Virus record (IMG/VR): IMGVR_UViG_3300025645_000518
Coordinates: 1 to 22,100 of that record
Reading direction: 5' to 3' (one strand)
Origin: a virus
Length of the DNA: 22,100 bases
The notes under the pieces were generated by a model. It did not search any database, had not been told where the DNA came from, and saw only the letters and a program-made list of their open reading frames with translations. Shown piece by piece: positions 2,188-18,002 of this stretch. The position numbers and the translations under genes were made by a program. Numbering within the stretch: position 1 is the first letter of the stretch; every line of letters begins with the position of its first letter.

Positions 2188-3106
2188 TTATTGTTCCTTT
2201 TAAAAAGTTTTCCCAATTCCTACCTGTTAATTTCCAATTATAAAACCTATTATAATATTCTTGTTGAAATTTAAGACCATTAGATAAGTCTTGGGATAAC
2301 ATTTTTTTTGTTTGTAAAATACATTCCGCAAGTTGAATAGCTAGTTTTGGTTTATTTTGTGTATAGGGTATGTAAATAGGAAACTCACCACAGGTTTCTG
2401 GTAAAGCTCCGAGATCCGTGGTTATTAAAATTTGACCCGCAGCTAATGATTCCATAGCTGAGATACAAAATGTTTCTTCCCAGATACTAGGAAAACAATT
2501 TACATCATAGTCTTTAAGCTTAGTCATTAAAGTTTTGTGATCACAATAACCCATGTAATTAACATTAGACATATTTTTAGCTTTTTCATATAAAGGTTTG
2601 TACTGATCATCGTTTTGTTGTTCAAATGATTTACCATAAATAATTGTGCTAGAATAAACATCTAGTGTAATGTCTGGATCTTTTATGCCATCCATAGCAG
2701 CCAAAGCTATTTCTAAACCTCTCCATGGTGTAGAGATATAACACATTTTAATTTTTTTCTTTGGTGTAAAATCTGTTTTTAGTTCAAGTTCATCGTAGTC
2801 AACTGCATTTTTAATTACTGTGCATTTGTCTTCAGGTATCTTAAAAAAATATCTGTACTTCTCGTAACTCCAATGTGAATTAAATACATACCAATCATAT
2901 TTAGAATGGTTATCTTTATTTTGAAACCAAGGCGCTAAGTTTGGTTGGTCGTATGAATTTTTTAACCAAAGTATATTGGGTTTTATGGGATCTAAAGGTT
3001 CTTTCTCAGGAATTGAAGTTGTAATCTGCACTGAATCTAATACGCCTTGATCAACGTATTTTCTTAAATATCCTAGTTGTATTTCAGTACCACCTGCTGG
3101 TTGCAT
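2168..3106 (-). CDS. GT-B-fold glycosyltransferase (GT4-like)
   Basis: A 312-aa protein resembling family 4 glycosyltransferases. The N-terminus has the glycine loop AGGTE (4-8). VFNSHWS (74-80) and IKNAVD (98-103) match the GT4 linker, where an acceptor-domain strand is followed by a 'V-x-x-N-x-v-D' turn. The nucleotide-sugar domain begins at CYISTPWRGL (122-131) and contains the E-x7-E motif E211 to E219 within SIWEETFCISAMES. At 312 aa it is shorter than typical GT4 enzymes of about 350-400 aa, mainly because the N-terminal half is reduced. Its start overlaps the previous stop (TAATG) and its end overlaps the next glycosyltransferase. The pair probably acts on one glycan or one protein target, which the sequence does not identify. 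Confidence 0.88.
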   Translation of the reverse strand: MQPAGGTEIQLGYLRKYVDQGVLDSVQITTSIPEKEPLDPIKPNILWLKNSYDQPNLAPWFQNKDNHSKYDWYVFNSHWSYEKYRYFFKIPEDKCTVIKNAVDYDELELKTDFTPKKKIKMCYISTPWRGLEIALAAMDGIKDPDITLDVYSSTIIYGKSFEQQNDDQYKPLYEKAKNMSNVNYMGYCDHKTLMTKLKDYDVNCFPSIWEETFCISAMESLAAGQILITTDLGALPETCGEFPIYIPYTQNKPKLAIQLAECILQTKKMLSQDLSNGLKFQQEYYNRFYNWKLTGRNWENFLKGTINVKRNR

Positions 3107-3801: not shown

Positions 3802-3965
3802 TAACTATTAAACCAAGCAAAAGCTTGATCCTCCTCTTTTGTTTCTTTTTGATAGTTAGTGTTTAACTGCTGTTGTAACGTTTCCAACGCTAAGTTAATT
3901 TGTCTAAAAGACTCAGGACTAAACTCTTGAGGTGGTTCAGGTAAAAATACTTGTACTTTAGCCAT
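3801..3965 (-). CDS. 54-aa tail-module protein ending in a WF motif
   Basis: This small gene sits exactly between the tail hub gene and the 114-aa protein, sharing TAATG overlaps with both. The product starts MAKVQVFLPEPPQEF, has one amphipathic helix, SFRQINLALETLQQQLN (19-35), and ends with AFAWFNS. A short proline-rich start, one helix and a terminal WF is a pattern I recognise next to P22 gp10-like hubs in marine podoviruses. The conserved position suggests a peptide that binds the hub or assists its assembly. This is inference. The perfect gap-filling and coupling make it a confident gene despite its length. Confidence 0.75.
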   Translation of the reverse strand: MAKVQVFLPEPPQEFSPESFRQINLALETLQQQLNTNYQKETKEEDQAFAWFNS

Positions 3966-5878
3966 TATCTTCTACCATCAGGTTGTATGTCAAATCTAAA
4001 TTGACCAAATCTCCAGCTTTCATCTGTTCCATCATTTTCTATTTTAACTGCAGCAAGTCTTGCTCTTGCTCTTGTGTCTACTTTATCTGTAGATGACGTA
4101 ACTGTAAACGGCCCTAGTGGTGAGCCTACTTGTATGTTTGCAGGATAATCTCTTAACTCTAATGTTACTTTTGCATTACCATTAATGTATTTAAAATCTG
4201 GTATAAATCTCCTTACCTTTATAAAATACTCTCCATCCCCTTGGGCATCTAAATCAAAATCCCCTGATTTAATAAACGCAGGAATAGCATTAATTGTACC
4301 GTTAGCTAATACTTCATTTGTACCGATCTCATGATTAAATACTCTTGATGCTCCATTAGTCACCCCTTGAATAGTTGGTGTAGTTGGTGCAAGACTAGCA
4401 GAAAATTCAGTTGCGATTGGATCACCAAATACATGAGCATCTTCATAGGTCGTTCTAGCTAATGTACTAGTAGTCCAAGTTTGCTCTGCATAATTATAAG
4501 TAACAAGTTTATCTACATAAGGTGAATTTGCTGACGGATAGAACCAATAAATTTCAGAAAATAAACTGTTGTGAGATGCGATTGTTAGTTCAGAACCACT
4601 ATCAAAATTAAATCCTGGTGTGCCGTTGTTAGTTTGAAAAACAAAATCCTCAACTAAAGAACCTAATGATTTTACAGTACCATCAAAAACAAAAAATCCT
4701 CCTGAATCCGACATCCAATAAACAGCTCCATTAGCATACACTATAGAATTTTGCCCCATACAGCCACAATTAGATCCAACTTGTCTAATACTAAAAGTAA
4801 AAGGTGGACCCACAAACTGCATTAAATAAGCTGAAGTATCAGTTAAAATTAATATATAATCTTTTGCTTTTGCTGCACCTACAATTTTGGTACCGCTATC
4901 AATTCTAAATGACCCTGCGGTATTAGTTGATGTTGCCGTATAATCAGTTAAGGATTCTTGATCCGAGAATCTTATGAACATTTTGTCTTGAGTAATAGAC
5001 GATCCAATTGTTGTTTCTGTGCCTAATATGATTAAATGTCTATCCCTATCTGACACCATACTCATGACTGATCGTGTTGGAGCTCCAGACAATATTGTAG
5101 CTCTTGTTGCTACACCACTATTTGGATCCCAAGAAAAAGTTTGACCATTCTTAATAGTTGCAATTAATAGCTCACCATAATTATCTAGTGACCAAGCTCC
5201 TGGATCAAGTATTGCTTGCGAAGTTGTTCTTGGTGTACCCCAAGTAGATCCGCCCCATAGAGCCGTTCCCCAACCAAACCCAAGTGCCTGTAATAAAGGA
5301 CCGACTTTATAGTAAGGTTTACTATCTAATGTACCGTCATTTGTAGCTCCCGTACCAGTTTCAGCTGTAGGCATTGTAATTTCAAATGTAGTTGTAGTCG
5401 GTGCTAGTTGAACTTCAAATAATACGTCGTCAAAATCAGTTGCTGTGTAATCTGTTTGTCCTGCAGTAAAAGATCCTGCATTTTCAAAAGTTAAAATATC
5501 ACCTGGTTCTAGGTCGTGAGCCGTGGGACATGTAACTGTAACCGTGGTTGAACCATTTGTAGTAGTAATGTCACAACCAGATTCTGCAAGTGATGTATCA
5601 AAAGGTGTAATATCATAATAATCATCACCATTATAAACATATAAAAGTTTATTTGTACCGAACGCTATATATCTTCTACCATCTAAATCAGCCCAACTGT
5701 GAGAAGCTCTCGTAGCTCCTACTAATTTTTTATCCATGATTTCTGACCATCCGCCTATTTTTTCAGGCATACCATATCTAAATCTAACAAAGTCACCATC
5801 GACCCATTGGTTTTCAGCTCCTGAGTCTGATGCTTGTTTGTTAAATCCTGGTGCAAATTGTACTTTTGTTAACGGCAT
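3965..5878 (-). CDS. tail hub / packaged-DNA stabilization protein, P22 gp10-like
   Basis: A 637-aa structural protein expected at the distal end of the short tail. It begins MPLTKVQFAPGFNKQ and has WVDGDFVRFRYGMPEKIGGW about residue 24, the characteristic 'DG-x-x-VRFR-x-G-x-PEKIGGW' opening of a family in marine podoviruses related to the P22 gp10 beta-propeller hub. Repeated Trp/Gly strand motifs follow, such as WGTALWGGSTWG (about 210), and an FFVFDG element. The C-terminus ends with VDTRARARLAA, a Trp-Arg-Phe-Gly strand and IQPDGRR, also typical of the family. I chose the ATG at 5878 because homologues start MPLTK. A GTG at 5893 would add five residues and has AAGGG only 3 bases upstream, so it is not excluded. 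It is separated from the other connector genes by about 11 kb of fibre and oxygenase genes. Confidence 0.85.
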   Translation of the reverse strand: MPLTKVQFAPGFNKQASDSGAENQWVDGDFVRFRYGMPEKIGGWSEIMDKKLVGATRASHSWADLDGRRYIAFGTNKLLYVYNGDDYYDITPFDTSLAESGCDITTTNGSTTVTVTCPTAHDLEPGDILTFENAGSFTAGQTDYTATDFDDVLFEVQLAPTTTTFEITMPTAETGTGATNDGTLDSKPYYKVGPLLQALGFGWGTALWGGSTWGTPRTTSQAILDPGAWSLDNYGELLIATIKNGQTFSWDPNSGVATRATILSGAPTRSVMSMVSDRDRHLIILGTETTIGSSITQDKMFIRFSDQESLTDYTATSTNTAGSFRIDSGTKIVGAAKAKDYILILTDTSAYLMQFVGPPFTFSIRQVGSNCGCMGQNSIVYANGAVYWMSDSGGFFVFDGTVKSLGSLVEDFVFQTNNGTPGFNFDSGSELTIASHNSLFSEIYWFYPSANSPYVDKLVTYNYAEQTWTTSTLARTTYEDAHVFGDPIATEFSASLAPTTPTIQGVTNGASRVFNHEIGTNEVLANGTINAIPAFIKSGDFDLDAQGDGEYFIKVRRFIPDFKYINGNAKVTLELRDYPANIQVGSPLGPFTVTSSTDKVDTRARARLAAVKIENDGTDESWRFGQFRFDIQPDGRR

Positions 5879-5899
5879 ACGGGTATTATACACTAACCC

Positions 5900-6385
5900 T
5901 TATAAATACGTAATATTGATGATAATTCTTGTTTTAGTGTCTGTTTGAGAAACTGCCCTATGCTTATAATTACCATTAAAAAATAGACAAGAATTAGCCA
6001 CAGAGGGAACTTTAATCTTATCTTCAATAAGGGTGTATCCATTATTCGTATTTACATAGTAGATAGCCACCATATGTTTAAAGTTCTCATCCTTATGATT
6101 GGCAGTCTGATAGTTTTTATTTTCTCTAGGTGTGAGATTACCTCTTACCCTAAATATTTCTTTTGGTTTAAATTTTTCTAATACAGGAACTATAACAGGG
6201 TTCCAAAAGTCACTATTAACTTTGTCACTTTTAAATATGTGTACAAAATAGTATCGTTCTTTATCTTTTTGGTTGCCTCCTGAATCACAATAATACCATT
6301 GAAAATTACCTGCTGTCATTGTTTGTAGAATTTTTTTATGAATTTTCTTGGGTAAGAAATTATTGATTACCTTATAATTAAGCAT
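5900..6385 (-). CDS. 2OG-Fe(II) oxygenase-like protein 10 (HxD type, 'FxWYY' group)
   Basis: A 161-aa single-domain member of the double-stranded beta-helix dioxygenase superfamily. Predicted iron ligands are H97 and D99 (ANHKDENFKH) and H142 (NYKHRAVS), with R153 (TRIIINITY) as the 2-oxoglutarate-binding base. The N-terminal half shows LPKKIHKKIL and GNFQWYYCD (26-34), which aligns with FPWYF in the gene at 8495-9052. The two share the 'H-x-D-x-x-F-x-H-x-x-x-x-YY(V/I)N' core. The start at 6385 gives an 8-base overlap with the preceding stop (ATGCTTAA). A longer open frame from 6457 would add 24 residues unlike any relative and overlap its neighbour by 80 bases. It is the last gene of the oxygenase array, followed by the tail hub. 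Substrate unknown. Confidence 0.8.
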   Translation of the reverse strand: MLNYKVINNFLPKKIHKKILQTMTAGNFQWYYCDSGGNQKDKERYYFVHIFKSDKVNSDFWNPVIVPVLEKFKPKEIFRVRGNLTPRENKNYQTANHKDENFKHMVAIYYVNTNNGYTLIEDKIKVPSVANSCLFFNGNYKHRAVSQTDTKTRIIINITYL

Positions 6386-6890
6386 ATAAAAAATTAGTAT
6401 TGAAGGATATAATTGTTTTTCTTTTTCCTTTAGTCTTAGGTGCTGCATGTAATACATGTCCAGGGAAAGTTATTATTTGTCCTTCTTCTACTTCATAGTC
6501 TATTAATTTACCATCAACTTTAATCTGTGTTTTATCTTCTTTGTTTGGTAATTCTAAAAAATATACGTTTGTATAATTAGTGTTGGGATGGTTATGAAAT
6601 TTGTGAAAATCATTAACTATATATTGTTGAAACCATATTCTTTCAATTGTAAAGTTATCAGCCTTAAAGTGTTCTACTTGTTCAAACATCATTGGGTTAA
6701 GTATTTGTCGCCTCAACATCATGTGGTAATCCTTAGTTATATCTTCTGGTATCGTCCAATCTGTTTTAGTAATATTGTTGAATGTAATATCAGGACTTTC
6801 ATCTATTAAATTTAGTAACTTATCTTTGTATTTTTTATGTTTAGGAGATGTGTAGATTAAAAATTGTGATCGAATATCTATTGATTTCAT
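6378..6890 (-). CDS. 2OG-Fe(II) oxygenase-like protein 9 (HxH type)
   Basis: A 170-aa protein of the same group as those at 7965, 9591 and 10732. The core reads IERIWFQQYIVNDFHKFHNH (82-101), with H99-x-H101 in place of the usual H-x-D. Then come a short YFLELP strand (110-115), GQIITFPGHVLHAAP with the distal H148, and KGKRKTIISFN with R157/K158 at the 2OG-binding position. The layout 'W-x-Q-x-Y-x-x-x-x-x-H-x-x-H-x-H' and the distal 'FPG-x-x-x-H' fit the PF13759/TIGR02466-like family, named from memory. It overlaps the methyltransferase-like gene by an ATGA junction. Whether the second His of H-x-H really binds iron cannot be decided here. Substrate unknown. Confidence 0.8.
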   Translation of the reverse strand: MKSIDIRSQFLIYTSPKHKKYKDKLLNLIDESPDITFNNITKTDWTIPEDITKDYHMMLRRQILNPMMFEQVEHFKADNFTIERIWFQQYIVNDFHKFHNHPNTNYTNVYFLELPNKEDKTQIKVDGKLIDYEVEEGQIITFPGHVLHAAPKTKGKRKTIISFNTNFLYA

Positions 6891-7384
6891 ACATATACCT
6901 TTTTAGCTAATTTCTCTCCAAAAAAAAGAGAGGTTACCGATGTTTTCTTATCATATCTTTGACCTACAAAATCTAAACAATAATAATTACTTTTAAGTAA
7001 ACTATACGCTTCAAGATTTTTTTCTCCGTTATCTAAAATAATCATAGACCCATAATCTTTATTTAAATGAACAAACTCAGCTAAATCTAGTCTTGAAATA
7101 TTAGTAGGATCATTGTCAATTAAAATATAATGAGGTCTTCTGTTTAAACAATCGTTTAAAGTAGGGTAGATATTTTTTTGGTCAAACATTATTAAGTCTG
7201 CTTTCTTACATTTTTTAAAAACCTTGTCATACCATATCTGGTTGTCTTCTAAGCTAATAACCTTTCTAAATATATTTTCAAAAAATACCGTAGAATTACC
7301 CGAACCTATTTCAAGTAACGTTTTATTATTTGTTTTTACTTTTGTTAAGTAATCTAAAAAAGGTTTTGTAAGTAAAGGTTTCAT
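6887..7384 (-). CDS. class I SAM-dependent methyltransferase-like protein
   Basis: A 165-aa protein with a Rossmann-type core: glycine-rich motif I, LLEIGSGNST (23-32), an acidic residue ending the second strand in VISLEDN (42-48), and YILIDNDP (86-93) followed by SMIILDNGE (113-121), matching strands four and five of class I methyltransferases. At 165 aa it is a minimal domain with no added substrate-recognition region, so DNA, protein and small-molecule targets are all open. There is no DNA-methyltransferase catalytic motif such as DPPY or NPPY. It lies inside the oxygenase array with ATGA overlaps on both sides, the only non-oxygenase gene there. That points to a shared pathway, for instance methylation of a hydroxylated product. 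Confidence 0.75.
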   Translation of the reverse strand: MKPLLTKPFLDYLTKVKTNNKTLLEIGSGNSTVFFENIFRKVISLEDNQIWYDKVFKKCKKADLIMFDQKNIYPTLNDCLNRRPHYILIDNDPTNISRLDLAEFVHLNKDYGSMIILDNGEKNLEAYSLLKSNYYCLDFVGQRYDKKTSVTSLFFGEKLAKKVYV

Positions 7385-7965
7385 CTAAATTTAGGTCCTG
7401 TTAAAAATATAGCCAATGATTTTCTTGTCCCTTTTGTTACAGGCTCTACCATATGGTGTAAATGCGGTTTAAATAAAAGCACGTCACCGGGTTTACTAAA
7501 CCTGTCTATAGTTTCTACATTATTGTTTAATATTTTAAATGTGCCTCCTTTATACGGGGCAGGTGAAATATCAATTAACAAAGTCGCTTTAATATCAAAT
7601 GTAATATCGTTAGCCATATCATTATGCCAGTCGTATTTAGCTTTTCGTTTTGATGAATAAGTATTGTACAATACATATTCCATATCTCCATAGTCAAAAG
7701 TTACATAGCCAAATTTGTGATTAATTGTCCAAAGAACTTGTTTAATAAAATCATTTAAAAAAGGTCTTAGTGTTTTATACAGAACCCAATAAACATCACT
7801 AGTCTTTTTACTTTTTCCTTTTAAATCATGCGCGGAAAACTTTTCGTCTTGTCTACCTACAAGGTTCTCGTCACACAACTTTGTTAAAGCAGATATCTCA
7901 TCTTTGGTGAAATGGTTTTGCCAAAACCAGTAATCATATTTAGAAAATTCAGTATCTTTTTGCAT
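7381..7965 (-). CDS. 2OG-Fe(II) oxygenase-like protein 8 (PKHD/prolyl-hydroxylase-like)
   Basis: A 194-aa single-domain oxygenase. Expected ligands are all visible: H114-x-D116 in YDWHNDMA, distal H171 in LHHMVEPVTKGTR and the 2OG-binding R181. Between them lie KATLLIDIS (126-134) and KGGTFKI (139-145), the usual 'L-x-x-L-x-x-x-GG-x-F' strand pair of PKHD-type hydroxylases. The C-terminus, TKGTRKSLAIFLTGPKFR, is strikingly like TKGTRYSLVCWTIGPKFK in the gene at 10127-10732, so these two are paralogues or came from closely related sources. The N-terminus has DYWFWQNHFT, matching DYWYFEKVIP there. PKHD relatives act on protein residues or iron-chelator-related targets, and the substrate here is unknown. 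Confidence 0.88.
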   Translation of the reverse strand: MQKDTEFSKYDYWFWQNHFTKDEISALTKLCDENLVGRQDEKFSAHDLKGKSKKTSDVYWVLYKTLRPFLNDFIKQVLWTINHKFGYVTFDYGDMEYVLYNTYSSKRKAKYDWHNDMANDITFDIKATLLIDISPAPYKGGTFKILNNNVETIDRFSKPGDVLLFKPHLHHMVEPVTKGTRKSLAIFLTGPKFR

Positions 7966-8498
7966 TAAAACTCCACAATATCAAAATCAAACGACACTAC
8001 TATTCTATCTTTATCGCTTTGATTGGGGTTAGTATAGTGAAGAAGATAACCTGGAAAAAAACAAAGCGTACCTTCTTTTACCTCAGGCATAGCTAGTTGT
8101 GTATTTGCAGTAACAGGGTTTGGTACAGGTGAAACAAAATAAGTACCGTCCATTTTACCTTGAATGTCATAGTACAACACACCTGTGTACATTGCTTTAC
8201 CGTGATGATGAATTGTTTGATAGTCACCTTTTTTGTAAGCCACTGTCCAAATATCTTTAATATTAATTTTTTTTATATTAGTTTCTTTTAATAAAAGTTC
8301 CATATCTTTTTTAAAAACTGTGTTGAAAGTATTTTTAAATTCTTCTATGTCGTTACAAAAACGAGATGTTTCATAGTTTGTTAAGTTTCTTCTTAAAAAA
8401 GATAGATTTGACATAACCTTACCTAATTTCCTTTTTTTGTTTTTCCAATCTTTAACTTGTGTTGAGGCAATGTCTACAGAAAACAAAGTATTTATCAT
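7965..8498 (-). CDS. 2OG-Fe(II) oxygenase-like protein 7 (HxH type)
   Basis: A 177-aa protein. After a Lys/Asn-rich N-terminal helical part comes DIWTVAYKKGDYQTIHHHG (82-100), with H97-x-H99 at the first iron-ligand site, then YTGVLYYDI (104-112). The distal part reads GTLCFFPGYLLHYTNPN with H154, and DRIVVSF (164-170) with the presumed 2OG-binding R165. The spacing from H-x-H to the following 'G-V-x-Y' is the same (9 and 7 residues before the Gly) as in the genes at 9591 and 10732, which ties them to one group. Its FPG-x-L-LH segment is closer to the gene at 6378. It is coupled to its neighbours by TAATG and ATGA overlaps. Confidence 0.82.
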   Translation of the reverse strand: MINTLFSVDIASTQVKDWKNKKRKLGKVMSNLSFLRRNLTNYETSRFCNDIEEFKNTFNTVFKKDMELLLKETNIKKINIKDIWTVAYKKGDYQTIHHHGKAMYTGVLYYDIQGKMDGTYFVSPVPNPVTANTQLAMPEVKEGTLCFFPGYLLHYTNPNQSDKDRIVVSFDFDIVEF

Positions 8499-9052
8499 TT
8501 TATCCTTTCAAATGTATAGATGCAAATCATTCTTACTTCATCAGGTTTACCCACAAACCCTGCAGCATGAAAGTTCTCACCTGGGTAAATAGCATATTTA
8601 CCTTTTTTTGCAGTAATTTCTTTATCAATTCTTTTTGCTTTTTTATCTTTGTAGGTTTCTTTAAAAACAAACGTAGAACCTTTTGTAAAGGAGTTTATAT
8701 AATAAATAAATACATCATGGGGAAACTCATGATCCCAATGTGGATCGGAATATACACCACTATTATACCAAGTAAAGTTTAGTTGACCTCTAAGTATTCT
8801 TTTAATTTGAATCTTATTTTTTCTTAAAGCTTTTTCCATTATCGGATAAATTAAATCATGTAAGTTCGAATTGACTTTAAAACCCTCATCATTAGTATAA
8901 TCATACCTAGGTATAAGCACGTGGGTAACGCATGGGTATTTTGGAGTAACAGGACTTGGTAGAAAATACCAAGGGAACATATTATTATTTATGTTTGCTT
9001 CTAACATATCGGTATCTTTTTTATTTAAGTTTCCTTCTATTATCTTAACCAT
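8495..9052 (-). CDS. 2OG-Fe(II) oxygenase-like protein 6 (HxD type, 'FPWY' group)
   Basis: A 185-aa protein with the full set of superfamily residues: H105-x-D107 in SDPHWDHEFPHDVF, distal H162 in YPGENFHAAGF and R174 in DEVRMICIYTF. FPWYF (26-30) near the N-terminus, the IKRILRGQLNF strand (83-93), and VFIYYINSFTKGSTFVF (114-130) give the expected 'H-x-x-x-x-YY-x-N-x-x-x-G-x-T' core. The closest relative in the window is the gene at 5900-6385, with which it shares the FxWY segment and the second His four residues after the iron-ligand Asp (HWD-x-x-x-x-H). Its start lies 13 bases inside the end of the preceding gene. Reaction is probably an oxygen-dependent hydroxylation; the target is unknown. 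Confidence 0.87.
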   Translation of the reverse strand: MVKIIEGNLNKKDTDMLEANINNNMFPWYFLPSPVTPKYPCVTHVLIPRYDYTNDEGFKVNSNLHDLIYPIMEKALRKNKIQIKRILRGQLNFTWYNSGVYSDPHWDHEFPHDVFIYYINSFTKGSTFVFKETYKDKKAKRIDKEITAKKGKYAIYPGENFHAAGFVGKPDEVRMICIYTFERIK

Positions 9053-9594
9053 GGCTTCATTATTAGTTTAGGGTATTTACTATCTTCCATTCCATCATAA
9101 GCTCTGTCTCTGTTTTCCCCATCTGCTCTTATGTAATGCATAAAAATTTGACAGCACGACTCTCCTTCAAAGGGTTTTCTCCAATGATCGTATTTTTGCC
9201 CCTCGTAAAAAACAGCTTCACCTGGTTTTGTATACATAGGCACGTCACCTTTTTCTGTTTCATACCATAAAGGCCATTGAGTATCAGACCAGATATTAAG
9301 ACTTACAGAAACTTCACATGAAGATCTATCTGAATGTCGTTTCATTACATTATCTTTAAAATAAACTCTTGAAAATGAATAAGTAGGTATAAGTTTTGAT
9401 TTAAATACTTTTTCTACTAATGGTTTTTTTATACACATAAAGTATTGTGCTACTAAATCTGAATAAATAGATATAGATCCTTCTACCATAGGATCAGCTC
9501 TAGCTATTTTTTGTTTAAAAAAACAATGATCAAAATATATCTCTAGATCTTTAAGCTCTTGTTTAGTTAAGAAATTTTTATAGTGTTTAATCAT
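9040..9594 (-). CDS. 2OG-Fe(II) oxygenase-like protein 5 (HSDR type)
   Basis: A 184-aa protein whose core starts SFSRVYFKDNVMKRHSDRSS (73-92) with H87-x-D89, then CEVSVSLNIWSD (93-104). A distal segment, PGEAVFYEGQKYDHWRKPF, carries H137, and CCQIFMHYI closes the helix. The order 'RHSDR-x-SCE-x-S-x-S-LNI', 'PG-x-A-x-x-Y-x-G-x-x-x-x-HWR' and 'Q-x-F-x-HY' is one I recognise from T4-like cyanophage and marine phage oxygenases. Where other members have Arg or Lys for 2-oxoglutarate, this one shows Q149, which seems usual for the subgroup. A distinctive C-terminal tail with many Asp, Arg and Lys residues extends about 30 aa past the domain. Only member of this type in the window. Confidence 0.85.
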   Translation of the reverse strand: MIKHYKNFLTKQELKDLEIYFDHCFFKQKIARADPMVEGSISIYSDLVAQYFMCIKKPLVEKVFKSKLIPTYSFSRVYFKDNVMKRHSDRSSCEVSVSLNIWSDTQWPLWYETEKGDVPMYTKPGEAVFYEGQKYDHWRKPFEGESCCQIFMHYIRADGENRDRAYDGMEDSKYPKLIMKPWLR

Positions 9595-10130
9595 ATCAAG
9601 TTAAAAGAAAAAGATATTCTTTTTTTCTTTTTATTTAAATTAGGCTCTACATTATGTAATAACCAACTAGGGAATAAATAAAGTGTACCTTCTTTAGATG
9701 GCAACCACCAAGATTGCGCAGAATAATTATTAAGCTTCGGATATCTATTTATTTGCCAGGCAGGGTTGAAAAAAAATATATTTCCACAATCTTTAGGTGT
9801 TTGAGTGTAATATACACCAGATATCATTTCATCATTATGGTCGTGTAGTAAATTATAATCTTTATAATAATTAATATTACACCAAATGTTACTAAAATTT
9901 ACTTTTGTTTCATAAATTGCTTTTGAAAAATCATTAGCATATTTTACAATTTCTTTTTTTAATTCAGTTAAACAATCGTCCGATAGATCTTCAGATTGAA
10001 AACCGCCTCTATTAGACTTAACACATCCTTTTGAATTCTTTTCAATTAAATTAGCATAATTATTTAAAACATCGTTATTGATATTAAGTTCCTTTTTAAA
10101 TACGCTAGTTTTAAATATGTCTATAATCAT
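9591..10130 (-). CDS. 2OG-Fe(II) oxygenase-like protein 4 (PF13759/TIGR02466-like, HxH type)
   Basis: A 179-aa protein matching the family I know as TIGR02466 or 'putative 2OG-Fe(II) oxygenase': NIWCNINYYKDYNLLHDH (81-98) with H96-x-H98, MISGVYYTQTPKDCGNIFF (102-120), FNPA, then EGTLYLFPSWLLHNVEPN with distal H159, and KRISFSFN with R171. The FPSWLLH-x-V-x-P-N and RISFSFN segments are near-exact family signatures. It resembles the gene at 10732-11310 most (KDCG, FPSW, R-I-x-x-SFN), although a PKHD-type gene lies between them. The N-terminal 60 residues are Asn/Lys-rich and helical. Catalysis is unproven for this H-x-H family. Substrate unknown. Confidence 0.87.
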   Translation of the reverse strand: MIIDIFKTSVFKKELNINNDVLNNYANLIEKNSKGCVKSNRGGFQSEDLSDDCLTELKKEIVKYANDFSKAIYETKVNFSNIWCNINYYKDYNLLHDHNDEMISGVYYTQTPKDCGNIFFFNPAWQINRYPKLNNYSAQSWWLPSKEGTLYLFPSWLLHNVEPNLNKKKKRISFSFNLI

Positions 10131-10732
10131 TTGAATTTAGGTCCTATTGTCCAACAAACTAAAGAGTATCTTGTACCTTTAGTTATAGGAGTAACTTTAT
10201 GGTATATCTGACTTGGAAAAACAATTATACTACCCTGTTCACTCATCTCCCTAACTCTTTGAACTTCTCTCTTTATTCCTATTTTTGCGTCGACTGCTAC
10301 GTAAAACATACCTCCCTCGTAATCTTTAGGGTCTGATAGGTTTACACAACAGCTTAATTTTCTAATCTTACCCTTCCAATTCTCTCTTGAATTTTCATCA
10401 TAAGGCGCTGGGTTGGCATCAAAATGCCAATTGTAATGCTGTTTATCTTTACCTTTATACTCTGTAAATTGAACGTCTTCACACCAATCAAAGTCAAAAC
10501 CCCAATCTGCACTTTTATTAGCGCCATGTATAAAAGGTAAGATCATTTCGTATACCCAAGGATCATTAAACCAACCCGTGTGTGAATTACGCATTTCATA
10601 ATCTATTTTATTGTCATCAACTACAGCTTGTTCTTTTTCTAATTTTTTACCAAATTTAATAATTTCATTACATTGTTTTTTAGGTATAACTTTTTCAAAA
10701 TACCAATAATCAGCTTTACCAAATAAACTCAT
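10127..10732 (-). CDS. 2OG-Fe(II) oxygenase-like protein 3 (PKHD/prolyl-hydroxylase-like)
   Basis: The 201-aa product has the clearest canonical motif set in the array: H103-x-D105 in YNWHFDANP, distal H178 in FPSQIYHKVTPITKGTR and R188 ten residues later, the exact PKHD spacing. KIRKLSCCVNLSD (122-134) and YEGGMFYV (138-145) provide the core strands, with the 'Y-x-GG-x-F' turn of Fe2OG-type prolyl 4-hydroxylase-like domains. Similar proteins are common in marine T4-like phages. It is paralogous to the gene at 7381-7965 by its GADYWYF-like start and its TKGTR...GPKFK end. The family generally hydroxylates peptide side chains, so a virion or host protein target is a reasonable inference, but none is identified. 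Confidence 0.9.
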   Translation of the reverse strand: MSLFGKADYWYFEKVIPKKQCNEIIKFGKKLEKEQAVVDDNKIDYEMRNSHTGWFNDPWVYEMILPFIHGANKSADWGFDFDWCEDVQFTEYKGKDKQHYNWHFDANPAPYDENSRENWKGKIRKLSCCVNLSDPKDYEGGMFYVAVDAKIGIKREVQRVREMSEQGSIIVFPSQIYHKVTPITKGTRYSLVCWTIGPKFK

Positions 10733-11310
10733 TAAATGTTGAAGCTGTACGCTATCCTATCTTTATTAGTTTTATTTGGTGTAACAAAATGATTAATCCA
10801 AGATGGAAACAAAATACACATTCCTGTTTGTGGAATTACTCTGTACTCTTTTGAGTTATACTTATTATAGTTATGATAAGAAGTTGCATAATTATTCATT
10901 TCTGCGTTATTGTTAAAAATTAAATCACCGCAGTCTTTTTCAGCTTTTACATAATATATTCCAGATATCCAATAAGGAGGATGGTTGTGTGGTTTATTAA
11001 AATCTCCTTTATTGTTTATTATAAACCAACTGTTATGTATTGTTGGCGTTCCCTTAACTTCAAAATCTTTTAAAGGTCCCTCTTTAACAAACTTATGTAC
11101 TTCTTCGTTTAGTGTTTCAGTAACTGTAGGAAAGGGGTAGAAGAAGTATTGAGTGTGTATCCCTCCTTCAGCAGACGTACCTACATTATGGTTTTCATGT
11201 TTTATCTTATTTAAATATTTAATAATTTTTTTATTATCAACGTTTTTAAATGTTTTTGCATAAATAGGTGTCGTAAAAACATCCTGCATTTCAAATTTAT
11301 TTTTAGTCAT
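10732..11310 (-). CDS. 2OG-Fe(II) oxygenase-like protein 2 (PF13759/TIGR02466-like, HxH type)
   Basis: A 192-aa protein with the family layout: IHNSWFIINNKGDFNKPHNH (91-110), with H108-x-H110, then PPYWISGIYYVKAEKDCGDL, then CILFPSWINHFVTPN with distal H174, and DRIAYSFN with R185. TPIYAKTF near the N-terminus matches the 'F-x-T-P-(I/V)-x' strand that opens TIGR02466-like proteins. It overlaps the previous gene by 8 bases (ATGACTAA) and the next by a TAATG junction. Of the four H-x-H proteins here it is most like the one at 9591. A Tyr/Asn-rich insertion (about 138-155) lies between the core strands, where substrate-binding loops usually sit. Confidence 0.87.
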   Translation of the reverse strand: MTKNKFEMQDVFTTPIYAKTFKNVDNKKIIKYLNKIKHENHNVGTSAEGGIHTQYFFYPFPTVTETLNEEVHKFVKEGPLKDFEVKGTPTIHNSWFIINNKGDFNKPHNHPPYWISGIYYVKAEKDCGDLIFNNNAEMNNYATSYHNYNKYNSKEYRVIPQTGMCILFPSWINHFVTPNKTNKDRIAYSFNI

Positions 11311-11872
11311 AGTAAAACCATCCTGTAATTATATATTTATTTTCTTTTTGTTTTTCTGATATCTCACCCTTATGTGTATGTGTCCAGGCAGCAGGCCAAA
11401 TTAAAGTGTCTCCTTTTTTACAATCAAAAGTTTTTTTTTGATAATAAAACATAGTACCTGCATTTTTACAAGTATTTAAAAAAGTCATAAATACTAAATG
11501 TCTTTTTACTGCATCTGGTGAACCATCATTTTCATAATGCCATAATTTAAAACCCTGACCTGGTTTATACATTTGTATATTACAACCACCCAATCCCCAT
11601 TTAGATTGTTGTTGATCAGCAAAAACGTATTTCTTTTTGTATTTATTTACACAAAATGATAATTCTTCTAAATAAGATCTTATATCTTTATTTAAAGCTA
11701 AATCTTCTGTGGTTAGTGGTATATCGGTTGAATCCTTAGTTTCAAGAGCAAGTTCTTGTTTGCCTCCTACAATTCCAGCTTTATGTCTTTTTTTATTTTT
11801 ATTAAAAAATTTTAATACGTTATCTATAACTTCGTTTTCAACTTTAAATTTCCCAATGAAAGAATCTGACAT
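11303..11872 (-). CDS. 2OG-Fe(II) oxygenase-like protein 1 (HxE type)
   Basis: First gene of the oxygenase array. The 189-aa product has MYKPGQGFKLWHYENDG (101-117), with H112-x-E114 where most relatives carry H-x-D, then HLVFMTFLNTCKNAGTMFYY (125-144), GDTLIWPAAWTHTHKGE with H165 (or H167) as the distal ligand, and NKYIITGWF with K179 at the 2OG-binding position. The combination 'WH-x-E', 'L-x-x-x-x-x-x-G-x-x-FYYQ', 'WPA-x-WTHTH-x-G' and 'KYI-x-TGWF' is one I recognise from cyanophage oxygenases, where Glu and Lys are usual, so the variants do not mean it is inactive. It is separated from the upstream gene by 38 bases, one of the few gaps in the operon. Confidence 0.85.
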   Translation of the reverse strand: MSDSFIGKFKVENEVIDNVLKFFNKNKKRHKAGIVGGKQELALETKDSTDIPLTTEDLALNKDIRSYLEELSFCVNKYKKKYVFADQQQSKWGLGGCNIQMYKPGQGFKLWHYENDGSPDAVKRHLVFMTFLNTCKNAGTMFYYQKKTFDCKKGDTLIWPAAWTHTHKGEISEKQKENKYIITGWFYYD

Positions 11873-11910: not shown

Positions 11911-12339
11911 TTAGACAGGAACCCAAGCTGAACCATCCCAATAATTAGTAACAGTTTCACTTGTTGTATTTAAAGCGTTCCATCTGGTATTATCTTCGTC
12001 CCACTCTACAACGTAATAATCGTCACTAATACTAGAAGTATCTCCGTACGGAGTGCCTGGTGCTTGCCATTTATAATTAGCATCTAAAGACCAAGAAGCA
12101 AAAGGTTGTGGTTCGTAAAATGCATTATTTGTAGCATCCCAAGTATAACCTACTCCCGCATAGTTATATCTTGTAGAAGCATCATTTGCATTTATAAAAG
12201 TTTCAACAACAGTTGCAGTTTGATCATTTAATATATCTCTTGCTTGTTGAATTCCATCTGCTTCAGTAGCTACATCCAAAACCATATCGTCTGTAACAAT
12301 ATTATTATCATCCACTATAGCAAAATACTTTTCAGCCAT
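11911..12339 (-). CDS. Trp-rich conserved phage protein, fibre-associated
   Basis: A 142-aa protein beginning MAEKYFAIVDDNNIVTDDMV. A middle segment, YNYAGVGYTWDATNNAFYEP (58-77), is followed by QPFASWSLDANYKWQAPGTP. It ends with a Trp-rich stretch including VEWDEDNTRW (109-118). The order 'YAG-x-G-x-x-(Y/W)D-x-x-x-x-AF-x-x-PQP(F/Y)-x-SW-x-L' then 'W-x-AP' is widespread in T4-like cyanophages and pelagiphages beside tail fibre genes, as I recall, with unknown function. The position between the Gly-rich protein and the oxygenases, coupled by TAATG to the former, suggests a virion component or fibre chaperone. No catalytic motif seen. It is the last structural gene before the oxygenase array. 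Confidence 0.75.
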   Translation of the reverse strand: MAEKYFAIVDDNNIVTDDMVLDVATEADGIQQARDILNDQTATVVETFINANDASTRYNYAGVGYTWDATNNAFYEPQPFASWSLDANYKWQAPGTPYGDTSSISDDYYVVEWDEDNTRWNALNTTSETVTNYWDGSAWVPV

Positions 12340-13247
12340 TATTGAAATTTCCTTCTAATTATTACTCTACCTGATGAACCTGGAGATGCTTGACCAACGG
12401 ATTCACCGCCTCCGCCTCCACCGCCTCCTAGGCCTGATGTTGCACCACTTGGTGCTTGAGGAGGAGATCCTGCTCCTTGAGATCCTCCACCTGATCCACC
12501 ATTAGATCTTGGGTTACCCCAACTTCCACCACCACCGCCACCGGCCATAGTTACTGATGATCCTGTGATTGATGTTGATCTTCCATTACCACCATCTCCA
12601 CCTTGTGAATTGTTTCTCGATGGTCCTGGTTGTCCGCCGTTAGCAGCTCCACCGCCTCCTGAGCCGTGATGTGAAAATTGTCCTGATCCTCCAGGTTGTC
12701 CGTGACCGTATGTTCCTGAATTTCCTGGTTGACCTGGTTGTTGACCAGAACCTGATCCATAAGGGTTTCCACCCCCTGATCCGCCTCCTGATCCTCCAGA
12801 GTTAGGGTTGGCCTGCCATGCAGCTCCACCGCCCCCACCAAGTGCAGTTAATATAGTTGAACCGTCGTTAAAAGTAGATTGGCCTCCGGTGTTTCCTCTA
12901 GATCTTTGTCCAGCGGCATTTCCTTGACCACCAACACCAACGTTATAAGTTTGCTTTGCAACAGTTAACAGAGCGTTAGTCATATCGACCATTCCACCTG
13001 CTCCACCGCCACCTCCATGTTCGCATCCGCCTCCGCCACCTCCAGCGACTAGAACAATGTTAATAGCTTTTCCGTAAGTTCCATCTGTCCCTAATTTAGA
13101 GATAACAAATGAGCCTCCAGAATTGTAAGTGTGTATTTTATAATCTCCTGAAGTAGAAACACTACCTCCAGATGCTTCCATAAATGGTGGACCACCTCCA
13201 ATCATGCTTGGGAAAGATCCTCCGCCTCTAGTTGTTCTTAGTGGCAT
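12339..13247 (-). CDS. Gly-rich adhesin-like tail tip protein
   Basis: A 302-aa protein built around a glycine-rich region (about residues 68-285) with runs of five to eight Gly separated by short Asn/Ser/Gln/Pro segments such as NPYGSGSGQQPGQPGNSG (161-178). It is framed by GDYKIHTYNSGGSFVI (34-49) before and SGRVIIRRKFQ (292-302) after, both typical of the Gly_rich_2-like proteins of marine phages. Polyglycine helices of this kind form the receptor-binding tip of T-even-like gp38 adhesins, so host recognition at a fibre tip is the likely role. There is no strict Gly-x-y collagen repeat. AGGAG lies 6 bases before the ATG. Adjacent Pro, Asn, Asp and Lys residues make it a conceivable substrate of the downstream hydroxylases. 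Confidence 0.85.
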   Translation of the reverse strand: MPLRTTRGGGSFPSMIGGGPPFMEASGGSVSTSGDYKIHTYNSGGSFVISKLGTDGTYGKAINIVLVAGGGGGGCEHGGGGGAGGMVDMTNALLTVAKQTYNVGVGGQGNAAGQRSRGNTGGQSTFNDGSTILTALGGGGGAAWQANPNSGGSGGGSGGGNPYGSGSGQQPGQPGNSGTYGHGQPGGSGQFSHHGSGGGGAANGGQPGPSRNNSQGGDGGNGRSTSITGSSVTMAGGGGGGSWGNPRSNGGSGGGSQGAGSPPQAPSGATSGLGGGGGGGGESVGQASPGSSGRVIIRRKFQ

Positions 13248-13256
13248 TAATTACTC

Positions 13257-14324
13257 CTATGCGAATTGTGTTTGTGCTGCAAAAACTTTGAATGTTGCAT
13301 CACCAGTTTTTATAACAGTATATGTGTAAACGTCAACAGAGTTTGCGTTTCCAGCAGAAGGTGCATCTCCACCTTGCCATTCTGGGGTTACTCCTGATCC
13401 ATCAACTTGTACAGATGAATTGTAATAAGCAGTAGACATTGTTACTAGGTGAACAACAGTTAAAGATTCTCCTGTATCCATAATAGAGTTTAGTGAGTTA
13501 GAACCATCACCTCTAATATTTAAAGTCCAGTTTCCTGAAGCATTTGAAGTGTAATATAAAACTGCTTGAGTAATTGCATCAAAGTTTACAGTTCCTGATG
13601 CTGCAGTTGCAGTGACAGTTGCTTTTTCAGTTGTTTGTTGAATAGCTCCCGCTCCTAAAGAAACTCTTCCAATACCTTTTGGATTTAAGTTTAAATCGAT
13701 GTTGGTGTCTCCACCAGTTGCAGCTACCTCAGGTGCATTACCTGTTGCTGCGTTTGTTACGTCAATTTGGTTTACTGCTGATGCTGTTGTTTGAAATGTA
13801 ATTTGTTCATTACCATTTTCATCTTGTATTCCGTGAGCATCATCAATTTTAATGTTATGACTGTTAGTGTCTAAATCACCACCTAATTGAGGTGAAGTAT
13901 CTTCAACAACATTTGCTAAGAAAAATACATCGTTTACATTTGTACCATCTGAGTAAACTAAAATAGTTTTACCTTCTGGAATTTCAACACCTGTTCCCGA
14001 TACAGTTTTAATAGTTAAAGTGTTTCCTGATCTTGTAGTGTTATCTGCAACAATGTAAGTTTTTTCAATTCCGTCTGGAACGTTAACAACTCTTGTTCCT
14101 GCTAAAGTTCCTGTTAAAGAAAGAACCATATTTCTAGCATTTGATAAAGTTGCATTAGTCATAGCTAAAGTTACATCTGCTGATGCAACGTCTATAGCTT
14201 CATAACCTGCAATTGCTTGTTGTACTAAGTTTAAGTTTGTATTTGTTTTATCGCCCCATGTACCAGAGTTTTCCCCTGTTACCATAAGCTCTAGTTTTAA
14301 ATCTGTTGAATAACTTGATGCCAT
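13257..14324 (-). CDS. tail fibre protein
   Basis: A 355-aa fibre. The N-terminal part, YSTDLKLELMVTGENSGTWG (5-24) followed by TNTNLNLVQQAI, is the common virion-attachment segment of marine phage fibres ('L-x-LE-x-x-x-x-GE-x-x-GTWG-x-x-x-NTNL'). A shaft region has VVEDTSPQLGGDLDTNSHNI (139-158) and GDTNIDLNLNPKGIGRVSLG (205-224), repeat-like motifs typical of this class. The C-terminal 110 residues, starting about residue 245, form a distinct beta-rich domain (VNFDAITQAVLYYTSNASGN). An AAAGGA ribosome site lies 9 bases before the ATG, and a strong promoter candidate lies just upstream. It probably contacts the host surface together with the following Gly-rich protein. Confidence 0.88.
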   Translation of the reverse strand: MASSYSTDLKLELMVTGENSGTWGDKTNTNLNLVQQAIAGYEAIDVASADVTLAMTNATLSNARNMVLSLTGTLAGTRVVNVPDGIEKTYIVADNTTRSGNTLTIKTVSGTGVEIPEGKTILVYSDGTNVNDVFFLANVVEDTSPQLGGDLDTNSHNIKIDDAHGIQDENGNEQITFQTTASAVNQIDVTNAATGNAPEVAATGGDTNIDLNLNPKGIGRVSLGAGAIQQTTEKATVTATAASGTVNFDAITQAVLYYTSNASGNWTLNIRGDGSNSLNSIMDTGESLTVVHLVTMSTAYYNSSVQVDGSGVTPEWQGGDAPSAGNANSVDVYTYTVIKTGDATFKVFAAQTQFA

Positions 14325-14351: not shown

Positions 14352-14380
14352 ATTTTATTTGCATTAAGCCGCCTTGTCAA
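14352..14380 (-). promoter_or_regulatory. sigma70-like promoter candidate before the tail fibre
   Basis: On the minus strand, a perfect -35 box TTGACA (14380-14375) is followed by exactly 17 bases and TAAAAT (14357-14352), one mismatch from the -10 consensus. A second AT-rich TATAAT follows immediately at 14351-14346. The predicted transcript would begin near 14345 and carry AAAGGA before the ATG at 14324. The -35 box lies within the last codons of the 714-aa gene (Val-Asp-Lys) and the -10 box in the 39-base gap. It would drive the fibre, Gly-rich, Trp-rich and possibly oxygenase genes. Confidence 0.55.
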
Positions 14381-16508
14381 CAGGTGTCCATGTTGGAGCT
14401 GTTCCAGGGTCAACTACTGCCCATGCATTTACACTCATTATACCTGTTGTTGTGGTCATTGTCACTCCCGAAGGTTGAGCTTCTGCACTAATTCCTGCAA
14501 GATAATCACCTATTACTATAGTTCCTATATCGTTTCCTGAAACATTTATTCTTACATTTGTAAATGCATCTTCATCACCTAATTGTACATCTAAGCCGAT
14601 TCCTGTTAATAATAAATTAGAGTCACCTGTTACAGCCTCATTTCCTGTATTTGAAGATAGCTCTATACCTGTAACATCAACTTCAACCGAAGGTACAGCA
14701 ACCTCTTCTCCACCAATACCTATGTCAGTACCAACAGATTGACCCCATTGACCATCACCCCAAGCTACTTCACCCCAAGGCTGAGCAGAAGCTGTTGTGA
14801 CCTGTACTGCTACAACTTCTCCTGCAAAATGTTCTCCAATATCAAATCTTGCAATAGTTACTCCTGGAGCATCGTCTACTATATTTGTAGACCCATTTGC
14901 TCCATCCATGTGTAATAAGAATGTTGTGTTTGAATCTGGTACAAATGCTCCTGTAGGCTCAGTGAAACTTGAACCTCCGTATCTTGCAGTATCTGATAAT
15001 CTAAACTCATCAATATAACCATTGAAATCACCAAAGCCATTTTCACCAATACTGAATGGACCATTATCTTGTTTATTACCTGTAGAAGCCGTATCTTCTA
15101 AAGTTCCGTTTTTATATATTCTGTGAGTATTTCCTTGTCTTTCAAAAGACAACATAGTCCATTCATTTGCATTAACAGTAACTGCAGTAGTAATAATTGT
15201 TGATGGATTTACACTCCAATAAACTGCATTGCCTAATAAATAGGATTGCATCGTTGTGCTTGTTCCTGATTGCCAAATACCTTTGTAACCTGAAACACTA
15301 GTTGGTCTTATCCAAACATCAATTGTAAAATCACCAGAGCTTAAATTAACATTTGAGTTAGATTCTACATAATCATTTGTACCATCTAATAATAAAGATG
15401 CTGTTCCAAATTTAGCTTGAGCTGTAGATAATTGTGCTTGGTTGTATGCAGTAAACTCAACTACATTTTCAGATCCATTAGTTACTAAATATTTAGCCTC
15501 ATATTCTAATTGACCTGTGTTTCCAGTAATTTCTGATCCTGTTACACCTACATTGGCTTCTGCTGAAACTGTTTCATTACCAATTGTGAAATTAGCTTGA
15601 ACCCCTGTGATGTCAAGATTTGCAAAAGCAGTAACGGTTCCAACACCACTTGTAATAGTCATACCAACACCTGTCACACTTGCATCAGGAGCGGCATCGG
15701 CTGTTCCTTCAGAGATAGTAAGTGCTGTTACAGCTGTTACTTGTACAACTGCGTTACCTCTTGGAGTAGTAGAACCTAAATTAATTGATGTTCCATCTCC
15801 AATACCCCAAGCACCTTCTCCGTAAGCTTCTTCTCCCCAAGGATCTCTTGATGGAGATGTAACCTGTACTTCAATATTTGGTCCAGCAAATTCTTGACCT
15901 TGTTCTGAAGTTATTGAAATACCTGTAACCGGCGCTTCTGCTGAAGCTCCCGCGACTGCGGTTCCTGTATGAATTATTTTAGTATTATCGTTTGCTATGA
16001 CAGCGGTTGCACCTGCCTCCACACCTGTCACACCGACTTGTGTAGATAAACCATCTCCAACACCCCAACCTCCTTGACCCCAAGTATCAAATCCCCATTG
16101 ATCCGTTGTGCTTGAAGTTACTTGAACTTCAACAAGTTCTCCAGCAAAAACTGAAGTGACTGATGTTGTCGTTATTAAAGTTGTAGGAATTATAAGTTGT
16201 GAAATACCTGAAACTGCATTTCCAATAGTAGTATTTAATTGTAAGCCTGTTGCTTGGAAAACAAAATCAGTCCCTGCAGCAACAGAAGTTATTGAAGTAG
16301 TTAATGAATTACCTGTTAAAAGAATTTCAGGTGATGATAGATCACCCCATTCTCCAGCTCCCCAATACTGCCCACCCCATCCAGGGTTTACAGTTGAGCT
16401 TACATTACCTTGTTGTGAATTAAGTTGAATGCCACTTACTGGGGTCTCTGTATCACCAAGAGTACCCCAGTTAGAAAATCCCCATGTTTGTGAGCCCCAA
16501 GTGGCCAT
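14364..16508 (-). CDS. large tail-fibre-like protein with WG repeats and LamG-like domain
   Basis: A 714-aa extended protein. Five Trp/Gly motifs of the form WG-x-x-x-WG-x-x-x-WG (residues 4-15, 44-55, 138-149, 224-236 with Tyr for one Trp, and 578-589) alternate with Thr/Val/Gly-rich beta repeats containing 'V-T-G-(I/V)' and AG-x-x-VEVQVTS. A lectin-like laminin-G/concanavalin domain lies at about 348-535: KFGTASLLLDGTNDYVESNS (367-386), GDFTIDVWIRP (392-402), RIYKNGTL (463-470), NGYIDEFRLSD (496-506) and TFLLHMDG (529-536). Such domains bind carbohydrate, so receptor recognition on the host glycan surface is likely. The ATG has GAGGAG about 7 bases upstream. No signal peptide or catalytic motif is visible. 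It could form a side fibre or tail spike. Confidence 0.85.
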   Translation of the reverse strand: MATWGSQTWGFSNWGTLGDTETPVSGIQLNSQQGNVSSTVNPGWGGQYWGAGEWGDLSSPEILLTGNSLTTSITSVAAGTDFVFQATGLQLNTTIGNAVSGISQLIIPTTLITTTSVTSVFAGELVEVQVTSSTTDQWGFDTWGQGGWGVGDGLSTQVGVTGVEAGATAVIANDNTKIIHTGTAVAGASAEAPVTGISITSEQGQEFAGPNIEVQVTSPSRDPWGEEAYGEGAWGIGDGTSINLGSTTPRGNAVVQVTAVTALTISEGTADAAPDASVTGVGMTITSGVGTVTAFANLDITGVQANFTIGNETVSAEANVGVTGSEITGNTGQLEYEAKYLVTNGSENVVEFTAYNQAQLSTAQAKFGTASLLLDGTNDYVESNSNVNLSSGDFTIDVWIRPTSVSGYKGIWQSGTSTTMQSYLLGNAVYWSVNPSTIITTAVTVNANEWTMLSFERQGNTHRIYKNGTLEDTASTGNKQDNGPFSIGENGFGDFNGYIDEFRLSDTARYGGSSFTEPTGAFVPDSNTTFLLHMDGANGSTNIVDDAPGVTIARFDIGEHFAGEVVAVQVTTASAQPWGEVAWGDGQWGQSVGTDIGIGGEEVAVPSVEVDVTGIELSSNTGNEAVTGDSNLLLTGIGLDVQLGDEDAFTNVRINVSGNDIGTIVIGDYLAGISAEAQPSGVTMTTTTGIMSVNAWAVVDPGTAPTWTPVDKAA
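14742..16499 (-). repeat. five dispersed WG coding repeats in the fibre gene
   Basis: Coding copies of the Trp-Gly motif lie at 16499-16464, 16379-16344, 16097-16062, 15839-15801 and 14777-14742. The third, fourth and fifth copies are preceded by nearly the same peptide (VEVQVTS, VEVQVTS, VAVQVTT) and followed by G-x-GT/GTD. The large gap between copies four and five contains the LamG-like domain (about 15467-14904). The copies differ in DNA sequence, so they are old protein repeats. Confidence 0.7.
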
Positions 16509-17661: not shown

Positions 17662-18002
17662 TATGTTGTTATTGTAACACTTCCGACAGAAACACCCAAC
17701 TGTCTTTTGTTATTTTCTTCTAAAGGACTTGTTGATGGTTGCATACCATTAGAAGTAAATTGACCTGGCCAATATTGTGGATCTAAATATACTGTTACAG
17801 GTGCAGGTCTTTGAGGTCTAGCATTCCATAACGCTTGAGGATCTGCCATATGTGGCTTTGGGTCTAGTTGAGGATGTTTAGCCTCAAATTCAGATGTGTG
17901 AACCCATGAACCATTCCATTCTTTTACCATTTCTCTGTATGGAAAAGCTTGTCCTGATCTATCTGATATAGATTGGGAATATTTACCTTTAGCGTAAGCC
18001 AT
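17661..18002 (-). CDS. zinc-ribbon-like tail-module protein lacking its cysteines
   Basis: A 113-aa protein with ISDRSGQAFPYREMVKEWNG (12-31), SWVHTSEFEAKHPQLDPKP (32-50), and a Pro-rich second half (RPQRPAPVTVYLDPQ). Many phage relatives that I recall read 'CDRCG-x-x-(Y/F)P-x-x-x-LV-x-EWTG-x-(L/W)VC-x-x-C-x-x-x-RHPQ', a small zinc ribbon. Here every metal-binding Cys is replaced (Ser13/Ser16 and Val/Thr/Glu later), while the W-x-G, V-x-x-S-E-(F/W) and KHPQ landmarks remain. So the fold may persist without zinc. It sits between two connector genes with overlapping codons on both sides, which suggests a structural role in the neck. No other function can be read. Confidence 0.75.
   Translation of the reverse strand: MAYAKGKYSQSISDRSGQAFPYREMVKEWNGSWVHTSEFEAKHPQLDPKPHMADPQALWNARPQRPAPVTVYLDPQYWPGQFTSNGMQPSTSPLEENNKRQLGVSVGSVTITT

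Follow-up and report, generated by a model that had tools for sequence, protein, structure and literature searches.

A run of ten 2OG-oxygenase-type genes in a phage tail module, inherited and replaced together with a glycine-rich adhesin-like gene

The window analysed here is a 22.1-kb virus record (IMG/VR IMGVR_UViG_3300025645_000518), in which ten genes of the 2-oxoglutarate (2OG)- and Fe(II)-dependent oxygenase type form a nearly uninterrupted array at 5900-11872. We found that, among relatives of this phage, the array is replaced wholesale between near-identical backbones and is co-inherited with the gene of a glycine-rich adhesin-like protein at 12339-13247 (the adhesin, for short). This linkage to an adhesin within a hypervariable cassette is the main point of the present work, and it was missed by the first-pass annotation, which had been made from the sequence of the window. 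Our preferred reading, to which we give a probability of about 0.45, is that the array supplies the enzymes of a host-recognition cassette, and that these modify the cassette's own adhesin or a neighbouring tail protein. The question would shift from host metabolism to host recognition, with the adhesin as a concrete candidate for the substrate.

Exchange of the cassette as one unit

We compared pairs of loci whose tail genes were at least 95% identical and which each carried three or more 2OG genes. Of 105 such pairs, which are not independent because several come from the same strain clusters, 87 shared no array gene, none shared a part, and 18 shared the whole smaller array (some loci are incomplete, so part of these sharing pairs compare only the genes in view). 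The adhesin followed the array: where it was in view, its identity was 90-100% in 8 array-sharing pairs and 30-51% in 20 non-sharing ones. At a tail identity of 80-95%, the 294 non-sharing pairs had adhesins at most 60% identical, and the three partly sharing pairs had values of 72-93%.

Synonymous divergence (dS) pointed to movement of the cassette between backgrounds, since the island genes were far less diverged than the border genes. In the L039/L088 pair, the border genes presented dS values of 0.87 and 1.18, against 0.04-0.25 for the island genes and 0.15 for the adhesin. In the pair formed by the window and L107, the tail gene presented a dS of 0.94, and the neighbouring oxygenase-type genes A and B 0.10-0.17. 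The ratio of nonsynonymous to synonymous divergence (dN/dS) of the 2OG genes was about 0-0.12 in both pairs. This is purifying selection and indicates functional constraint, and it rules out pseudogenes where the ratio could be tested.

The island was defined as the interval between homologues of two conserved minus-strand genes, a tail/stabilization protein at the downstream border (3965-5893, phrog_3287) and a tail-region gene at the upstream border (13257-14324). The array sits between them, in the tail module, where the first-pass annotation had placed it. Both borders were seen in 38 loci, where the islands mostly spanned 3.4-11.7 kb and held a mean of 9.7 genes, 5.4 of them of the 2OG type. 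The genes flanking the array are strongly conserved among relatives of the window, but the array itself is not. Among relatives with a tail gene 82-94% identical, almost no 2OG gene was more than 44% identical to a window gene, with L107 as the exception. Across 102 loci, 504 2OG genes fell into 284 clusters at 50% identity, and the adjacent tail genes into 5.

A gene was counted as glycine-rich if it contained a 50-residue segment with at least 40% glycine. Such a gene was present in all 37 non-empty complete islands, against a background of 10% of genes of at least 150 aa. It was the first gene of the island in 33 of the 37, and the usual order after it was a small gene of the same type as 11911-12339 and then the array; 191 of 204 island 2OG genes were co-directional with the tail gene. 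In the window, the adhesin is the upstream cassette member (minus strand); it is 33% glycine and matches PF21722 Gly_rich_2 (E 2.8e-14) and phrog_2295. PF21722 is common to the glycine-rich genes of the window, S-SM1, Mosig, syn9, HTVC033P, HTVC023P, and DSL-LC04. The glycine-rich proteins of HTVC023P are encoded at L008:235-5931 and 10369-11295. The small gene between adhesin and array (11911-12339, minus strand, phrog_7759) is itself hypervariable, with a median identity of 30-33% between relatives.

The gp38 adhesins of the T2-type phages S16 and PP01 are also glycine-rich tail proteins in the receptor-recognition region and are hypervariable between relatives (PMC12892980). By analogy, the protein at 12339-13247 is probably a host-binding or receptor-binding protein. 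It differs from gp38 in matching PF21722 and phrog_2295 and no GP38 Pfam model; likened to it by sequence features, it is a candidate for the polyglycine-II sandwich of such adhesins. A sequence search for solved structures of the adhesin, of the phrog_1574 protein downstream of the island, and of the methyltransferase-like gene within the array returned nothing informative.

The ten oxygenase-type genes

The block is filled by eleven minus-strand open reading frames of 161-201 aa each, with adjacent ones overlapping by 1-13 nucleotides. Ten are 2OG-type genes and one is methyltransferase-like, in the order eight, one other, two, which agrees with the single interruption described in the first-pass annotation. 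The same array was found at 100% identity on a separate, independent IMG/VR contig (L013), which rules out an assembly artefact. A scan for promoters and terminators inside the block gave a signal no higher than in shuffled sequences.

Seven of the ten genes matched 2OG models of Pfam above the gathering score: B (6378-6890), D (7965-8498), G (9591-10130), and I (10732-11310) matched PF13759, and C (7381-7965), H (10127-10732), and J (11303-11872) matched PF13640. Genes A (5900-6457), E (8495-9052), and F (9040-9594) had no Pfam match; in PHROGs, A and E belong to phrog_274 and F to phrog_2954. As representatives of these two family types, E and F were modelled with AlphaFold and compared with the PDB using Foldseek. 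The model of E (predicted local distance difference test, pLDDT, 92.7) matched 2OG oxygenases and prolyl hydroxylases. That of F (pLDDT 89.9) best matched the Pseudomonas putida prolyl 4-hydroxylase 4j25 (E 5e-8, TM score 0.64). Gene A is counted as 2OG-type because it shares its family with the modelled E. Judged by sequence family or modelled fold, all ten genes are of the 2OG type, as the first-pass annotation had claimed from their jelly-roll pattern, and a 2OG- and Fe(II)-dependent oxidation is predicted for them.

By sequence, gene F is not strongly connected with the remaining nine genes (profile E about 0.002), so its assignment comes from fold and motif. It resembles 4j25 and the PBCV-1 enzyme vCPH (5c5t) in fold and in the HxD...H motif, although identities are 10-16%. 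In an alignment of F with 42 relatives, H87, D89, R90, H137, R139, Q149, and H153 were invariant.

The HxD/E...H iron triad is kept in six of the ten genes: A (H121/D123/H166, in 185-aa numbering), C (H114/D116/H171), E (H105/D107/H162), F (H87/D89/H137), H (H103/D105/H178), and J (H112/E114/H167). For gene A, the start is most plausibly the ATG at 6385, which gives 161 aa and an 8-nucleotide overlap with B. The four PF13759 genes have a conserved HxH...H motif lacking a conserved acidic residue: B (H99/H101, H148), D (H97/H99, H154), G (H96/H98, H159), and I (H108/H110, H174). The solved structures 2RG4 and 3BVC, to which gene I is related, likewise show HxH, and a three-histidine iron site is possible in this group. 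Gene H is a distant match to PiuC structures. The basic 2OG-binding residue, an arginine or lysine about ten positions after the distal histidine, is present in A (R177), B (K158), C (R181), D (R165), E (R174), G (R171), H (R188), and I (R185), and is not clear in F and J. In another locus, a 49%-identical relative of gene I (L105:6355-6930) is probably catalytically dead, judging by the loss of both HxH histidines and the distal histidine (RKR, ETL), though it lies beside intact 2OG genes.

The interrupting gene (6887-7384, minus strand) carries an LLEIGSGNST motif and looks like a small S-adenosylmethionine-dependent methyltransferase, with a weak PHROGs match (E 0.02). Its relatives also adjoin 2OG genes.

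Two misnamed families

PHROGs names phrog_2954, the family of gene F, 'ferrochelatase' and phrog_274, the family of A and E, 'DNA endonuclease V'. Both names are wrong, since the modelled E and F present a prolyl-hydroxylase-type fold. None of 43 homologues of phrog_2954 matched any Pfam ferrochelatase model, and the UniProt 'ferrochelatase' E3SI68 of S-SM1 has the same fold as gene F. For phrog_274, 15 of 34 homologues matched PF13640 and none an endonuclease.

The correction bears on two earlier views of phage 2OG genes. The first is auxiliary metabolism, in which the enzymes, with ferrochelatase partners, act on the host's metabolism of 2-oxoglutarate, nitrogen, or iron, as proposed for cyanophages (PMC3037559) and pelagiphages (PMC9599517, PMC11561400). 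The 'ferrochelatase' is itself 2OG-type by profile and fold, which removes the partner from this model, and a bulk metabolic role leaves unexplained both the complete turnover with the adhesin and the cluster diversity of the 2OG genes. We regard it as quite unlikely here. Published ecological analyses have nonetheless treated phrog_2954 as an iron-metabolism gene, and some of their conclusions rest on that name (PMC11561400, PMC9599517).

The second view is modification or repair of DNA or nucleotides. Earlier work, cited in PMC3037559, had proposed a DNA-repair role for the 2OG proteins of cyanophages, and ALKBH5 is among the fold neighbours of gene F. The array nevertheless lies in the tail module, the block holds no other DNA-modification gene, and the name 'DNA endonuclease V' is refuted by fold and profile. 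DNA bases, one of the substrates offered by the first-pass annotation, gained no support, and we give this view very little credence.

A third PHROGs name may be wrong too: 21051-21695 in the window strongly matches phrog_3704 (E 1e-79), named 'ferredoxin', yet has zero Pfam matches.

Phage relatives and frequency of long arrays

The tail protein at 3965-5893 is 53-54% identical to those of the Pelagibacter phages HTVC023P and HTVC027P. By this sequence relationship, the window phage is related to HTVC023P-type pelagiphage podoviruses and not to T4-like phages, the context in which the first-pass annotation had set it.

We surveyed 183 loci, 80 found through the tail gene, 80 through the gene F family, and others through single genes, together with GenBank phages. 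Runs were counted with profiles built for each oxygenase group, allowing at most one gap gene between neighbouring 2OG genes. Runs of eight to ten were found in 14 of the 183 loci; because the loci were selected for related genes, they do not sample marine phages at random. Close pairs (window/L013, L099/L100, syn9/Syn10) are among the fourteen, which amount to about 11 distinct loci. Runs of ten occur in L176 (uninterrupted), L099/L100, L124, and L128, and among isolated cyanophages S-SM1 has nine and syn9/Syn10 eight. The ten-gene array is thus not unique, and the suggestion that such a run is exceptional is not supported. The first-pass annotation had also asked whether arrays of at least eight were common and already described: they do recur, and we found no prior description of such genes as arrays within the open-access literature searched. 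Array sizes may be undercounts, because DUF6445 (PF20043) proteins, which stand amid 2OG genes in several islands (L028:5714-6487 and relatives), resemble an additional type of oxygenase.

Phages with several 2OG genes each have already been published (PMC3037559, PMC9602691, PMC9599517), and the functions proposed lie in DNA repair and in the metabolism of nitrogen or iron (PMC3037559, PMC9599517, PMC11561400). The closest case is that of the HTVC023P-type pelagiphages, the same phage group, with eight distinct 2OG types, several per genome, and 'ferrochelatase' neighbours (PMC9599517). That study describes the 2OG genes as often near each other, not adjacent, and ferrochelatase-paired, whereas the arrays seen here run to as many as ten genes with hardly an interruption, and their 'ferrochelatase' is 2OG-type. 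Cyanophages syn9 (gp45-54) and S-SM1 (051-061) have similar runs of eight to nine near tail-fibre and glycine-rich genes; they differ in being T4-like myoviruses, and their arrays are hidden behind the annotations ferrochelatase, DNA endonuclease V, or minor coat protein. In contrast, the 24 2OG genes of S-SCSM1 are mostly scattered (PMC9602691). Marine metaviromic islands are also alike, with eight Fe(II)-dependent oxygenases and three gp38 adhesins in variable islands for which host recognition was inferred; the array, the co-inheritance of adhesin and array, and the block exchange are not reported in the accessible part of that paper (PMC3909814). Within the literature searched, the arrays, the misnamed families, and the exchange of adhesin and array as a block appear to be new.

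Other lineages and companion enzymes

The distance between the largest array and the sole glycine-rich gene of the sequence examined is two genes in S-SM1, Mosig, and HTVC008M; in syn9, the array is six genes from a glycine-rich gene. Under random placement, the fractions with such proximity were 0.073 for S-SM1, 0.13 for syn9, 0.054 for Mosig, and 0.063 for HTVC008M. The recurrence of the pairing in these four myoviruses, of which S-SM1 and syn9 are both cyanophages, is suggestive when they are taken together, but not decisive.

Pfam matches among 64 other island genes (the interrupting gene of the window included) comprised 17 Trp_halogenases, 10 carbamoyltransferases, and about 10 sulfotransferases, plus single JmjC, cupin, and methyltransferase types. 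A 2OG gene was no more than three genes away for 28 of 31 halogenases, 14 of 15 carbamoyltransferases, and 16 of 17 sulfotransferases, compared with 49% of other genes; the count is partly circular, because islands had served to seed the families. In Syn10 (L187:5928-9033), two halogenase genes stand between the glycine-rich genes and the 2OG array. The viral halogenase VirX1, which accepts many aromatic small molecules, was characterised from this cyanophage (PMC8407142) and is probably one of these two, by length the 530-aa CPUG_00131. Our analysis supplies its genomic setting.

The combination of halogenase, carbamoyltransferase, sulfotransferase, methyltransferase, and 2OG oxygenase is reminiscent of natural-product tailoring, and the breadth of VirX1 fits such a role. 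The product that the enzymes make or tailor could thus be a small molecule, a glycan, or a lipid, which is either released or attached to the virion; the adhesin would be a mere neighbour in a host-range island. We consider this improbable: scaffold-building enzymes were not recognised in the islands, and the arrays turn over completely together with the adhesin.

The adhesin linkage is accounted for equally well by a target on the host, in which case the array would act late in infection on the cell surface or receptor (lipopolysaccharide, surface glycan, or outer-membrane protein). Progeny would not be trapped, relatives with the same adhesin would be kept from superinfecting, and the linkage would arise because the array has to suit the adhesin. 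Sugars can be substrates of carbamoyl- and sulfotransferases; single kinases, cytidyltransferases, and one glycosyltransferase stand beside some arrays, and two minus-strand genes lie just beyond the island, a GT4-type glycosyltransferase (2168-3106, PF00534) and a phrog_1574 protein with a DSD motif, possibly a GT-A glycosyltransferase (1429-2187). However, both are conserved and outside the swapped unit, which rules them out as its members, and halogenases acting on aromatic rings do not suit polysaccharides. We see modification of the host surface or receptor as somewhat unlikely, and as the chief rival to our preferred reading.

A proposed self-modifying host-recognition cassette

Modification of the phage's own adhesin is favoured, indirectly, by the co-inheritance, the position, the strand, the prolyl-hydroxylase-type fold, and halogenases that need aromatic rings. 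Flavin halogenases act on aromatic rings, a better fit to protein side chains than to sugars. The proposed cassette would consist of the adhesin, its small companion, and the 2OG array, and would swap as a whole between phages at a fixed site of the tail module. The array enzymes would be made late, together with the tail genes, and would place hydroxyl groups on side chains of the freshly synthesised adhesin or on those of a neighbouring tail protein. Sister cassettes would attach further groups by means of flavin halogenases and carbamoyl-, sulfo-, and methyltransferases. The host-binding tip would thereby change in its chemistry, stability, or receptor specificity. If different enzymes of one array hit different residues, a cassette must carry a set matched to its own adhesin. 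A virion protein as substrate, one of the options named in the first-pass annotation, is supported as plausible.

Several points weigh against this explanation. The modification and the enzyme activities are deduced from genes and folds, and the receptor-binding role of the adhesin is itself an analogy to gp38. The co-inheritance is also expected from host-receptor modification or from simple proximity within a recombination unit. The adhesin model failed a composition test, in that adhesins of halogenase-bearing cassettes were not richer in tryptophan (p 0.46) or tyrosine (p 0.12), and the number of 2OG genes did not correlate with adhesin length. HTVC027P has three inverted 2OG genes with no glycine-rich protein in view, and scattered single 2OG genes in S-SCSM1 and HTVC008M show that some phage 2OG genes stand outside such cassettes. 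Histidine was higher in adhesins of halogenase-bearing cassettes (p 0.003), which is not significant after correction for 36 tests.

More tentatively, we suggest a broader possibility, in which an exchangeable adhesin travels with its own protein-tailoring enzymes, up to ten oxygenases, to which sister cassettes add halogenases and carbamoyl-, sulfo-, and methyltransferases. Host recognition might then proceed through a ribosomally made adhesin diversified after translation, in a manner that can be likened to tailored ribosomal peptides.

Other genes of the window

Beyond the island, the large tail gene at 14364-16508 varies from 24 to 87% identity between relatives. It is highly variable yet unlinked to the array, and we regard it as a second variable spot. 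Finally, the nearby genes at 16972-17661 and 18002-18676 look like a duplication, since each matches the SU10 adaptor family PF24175.

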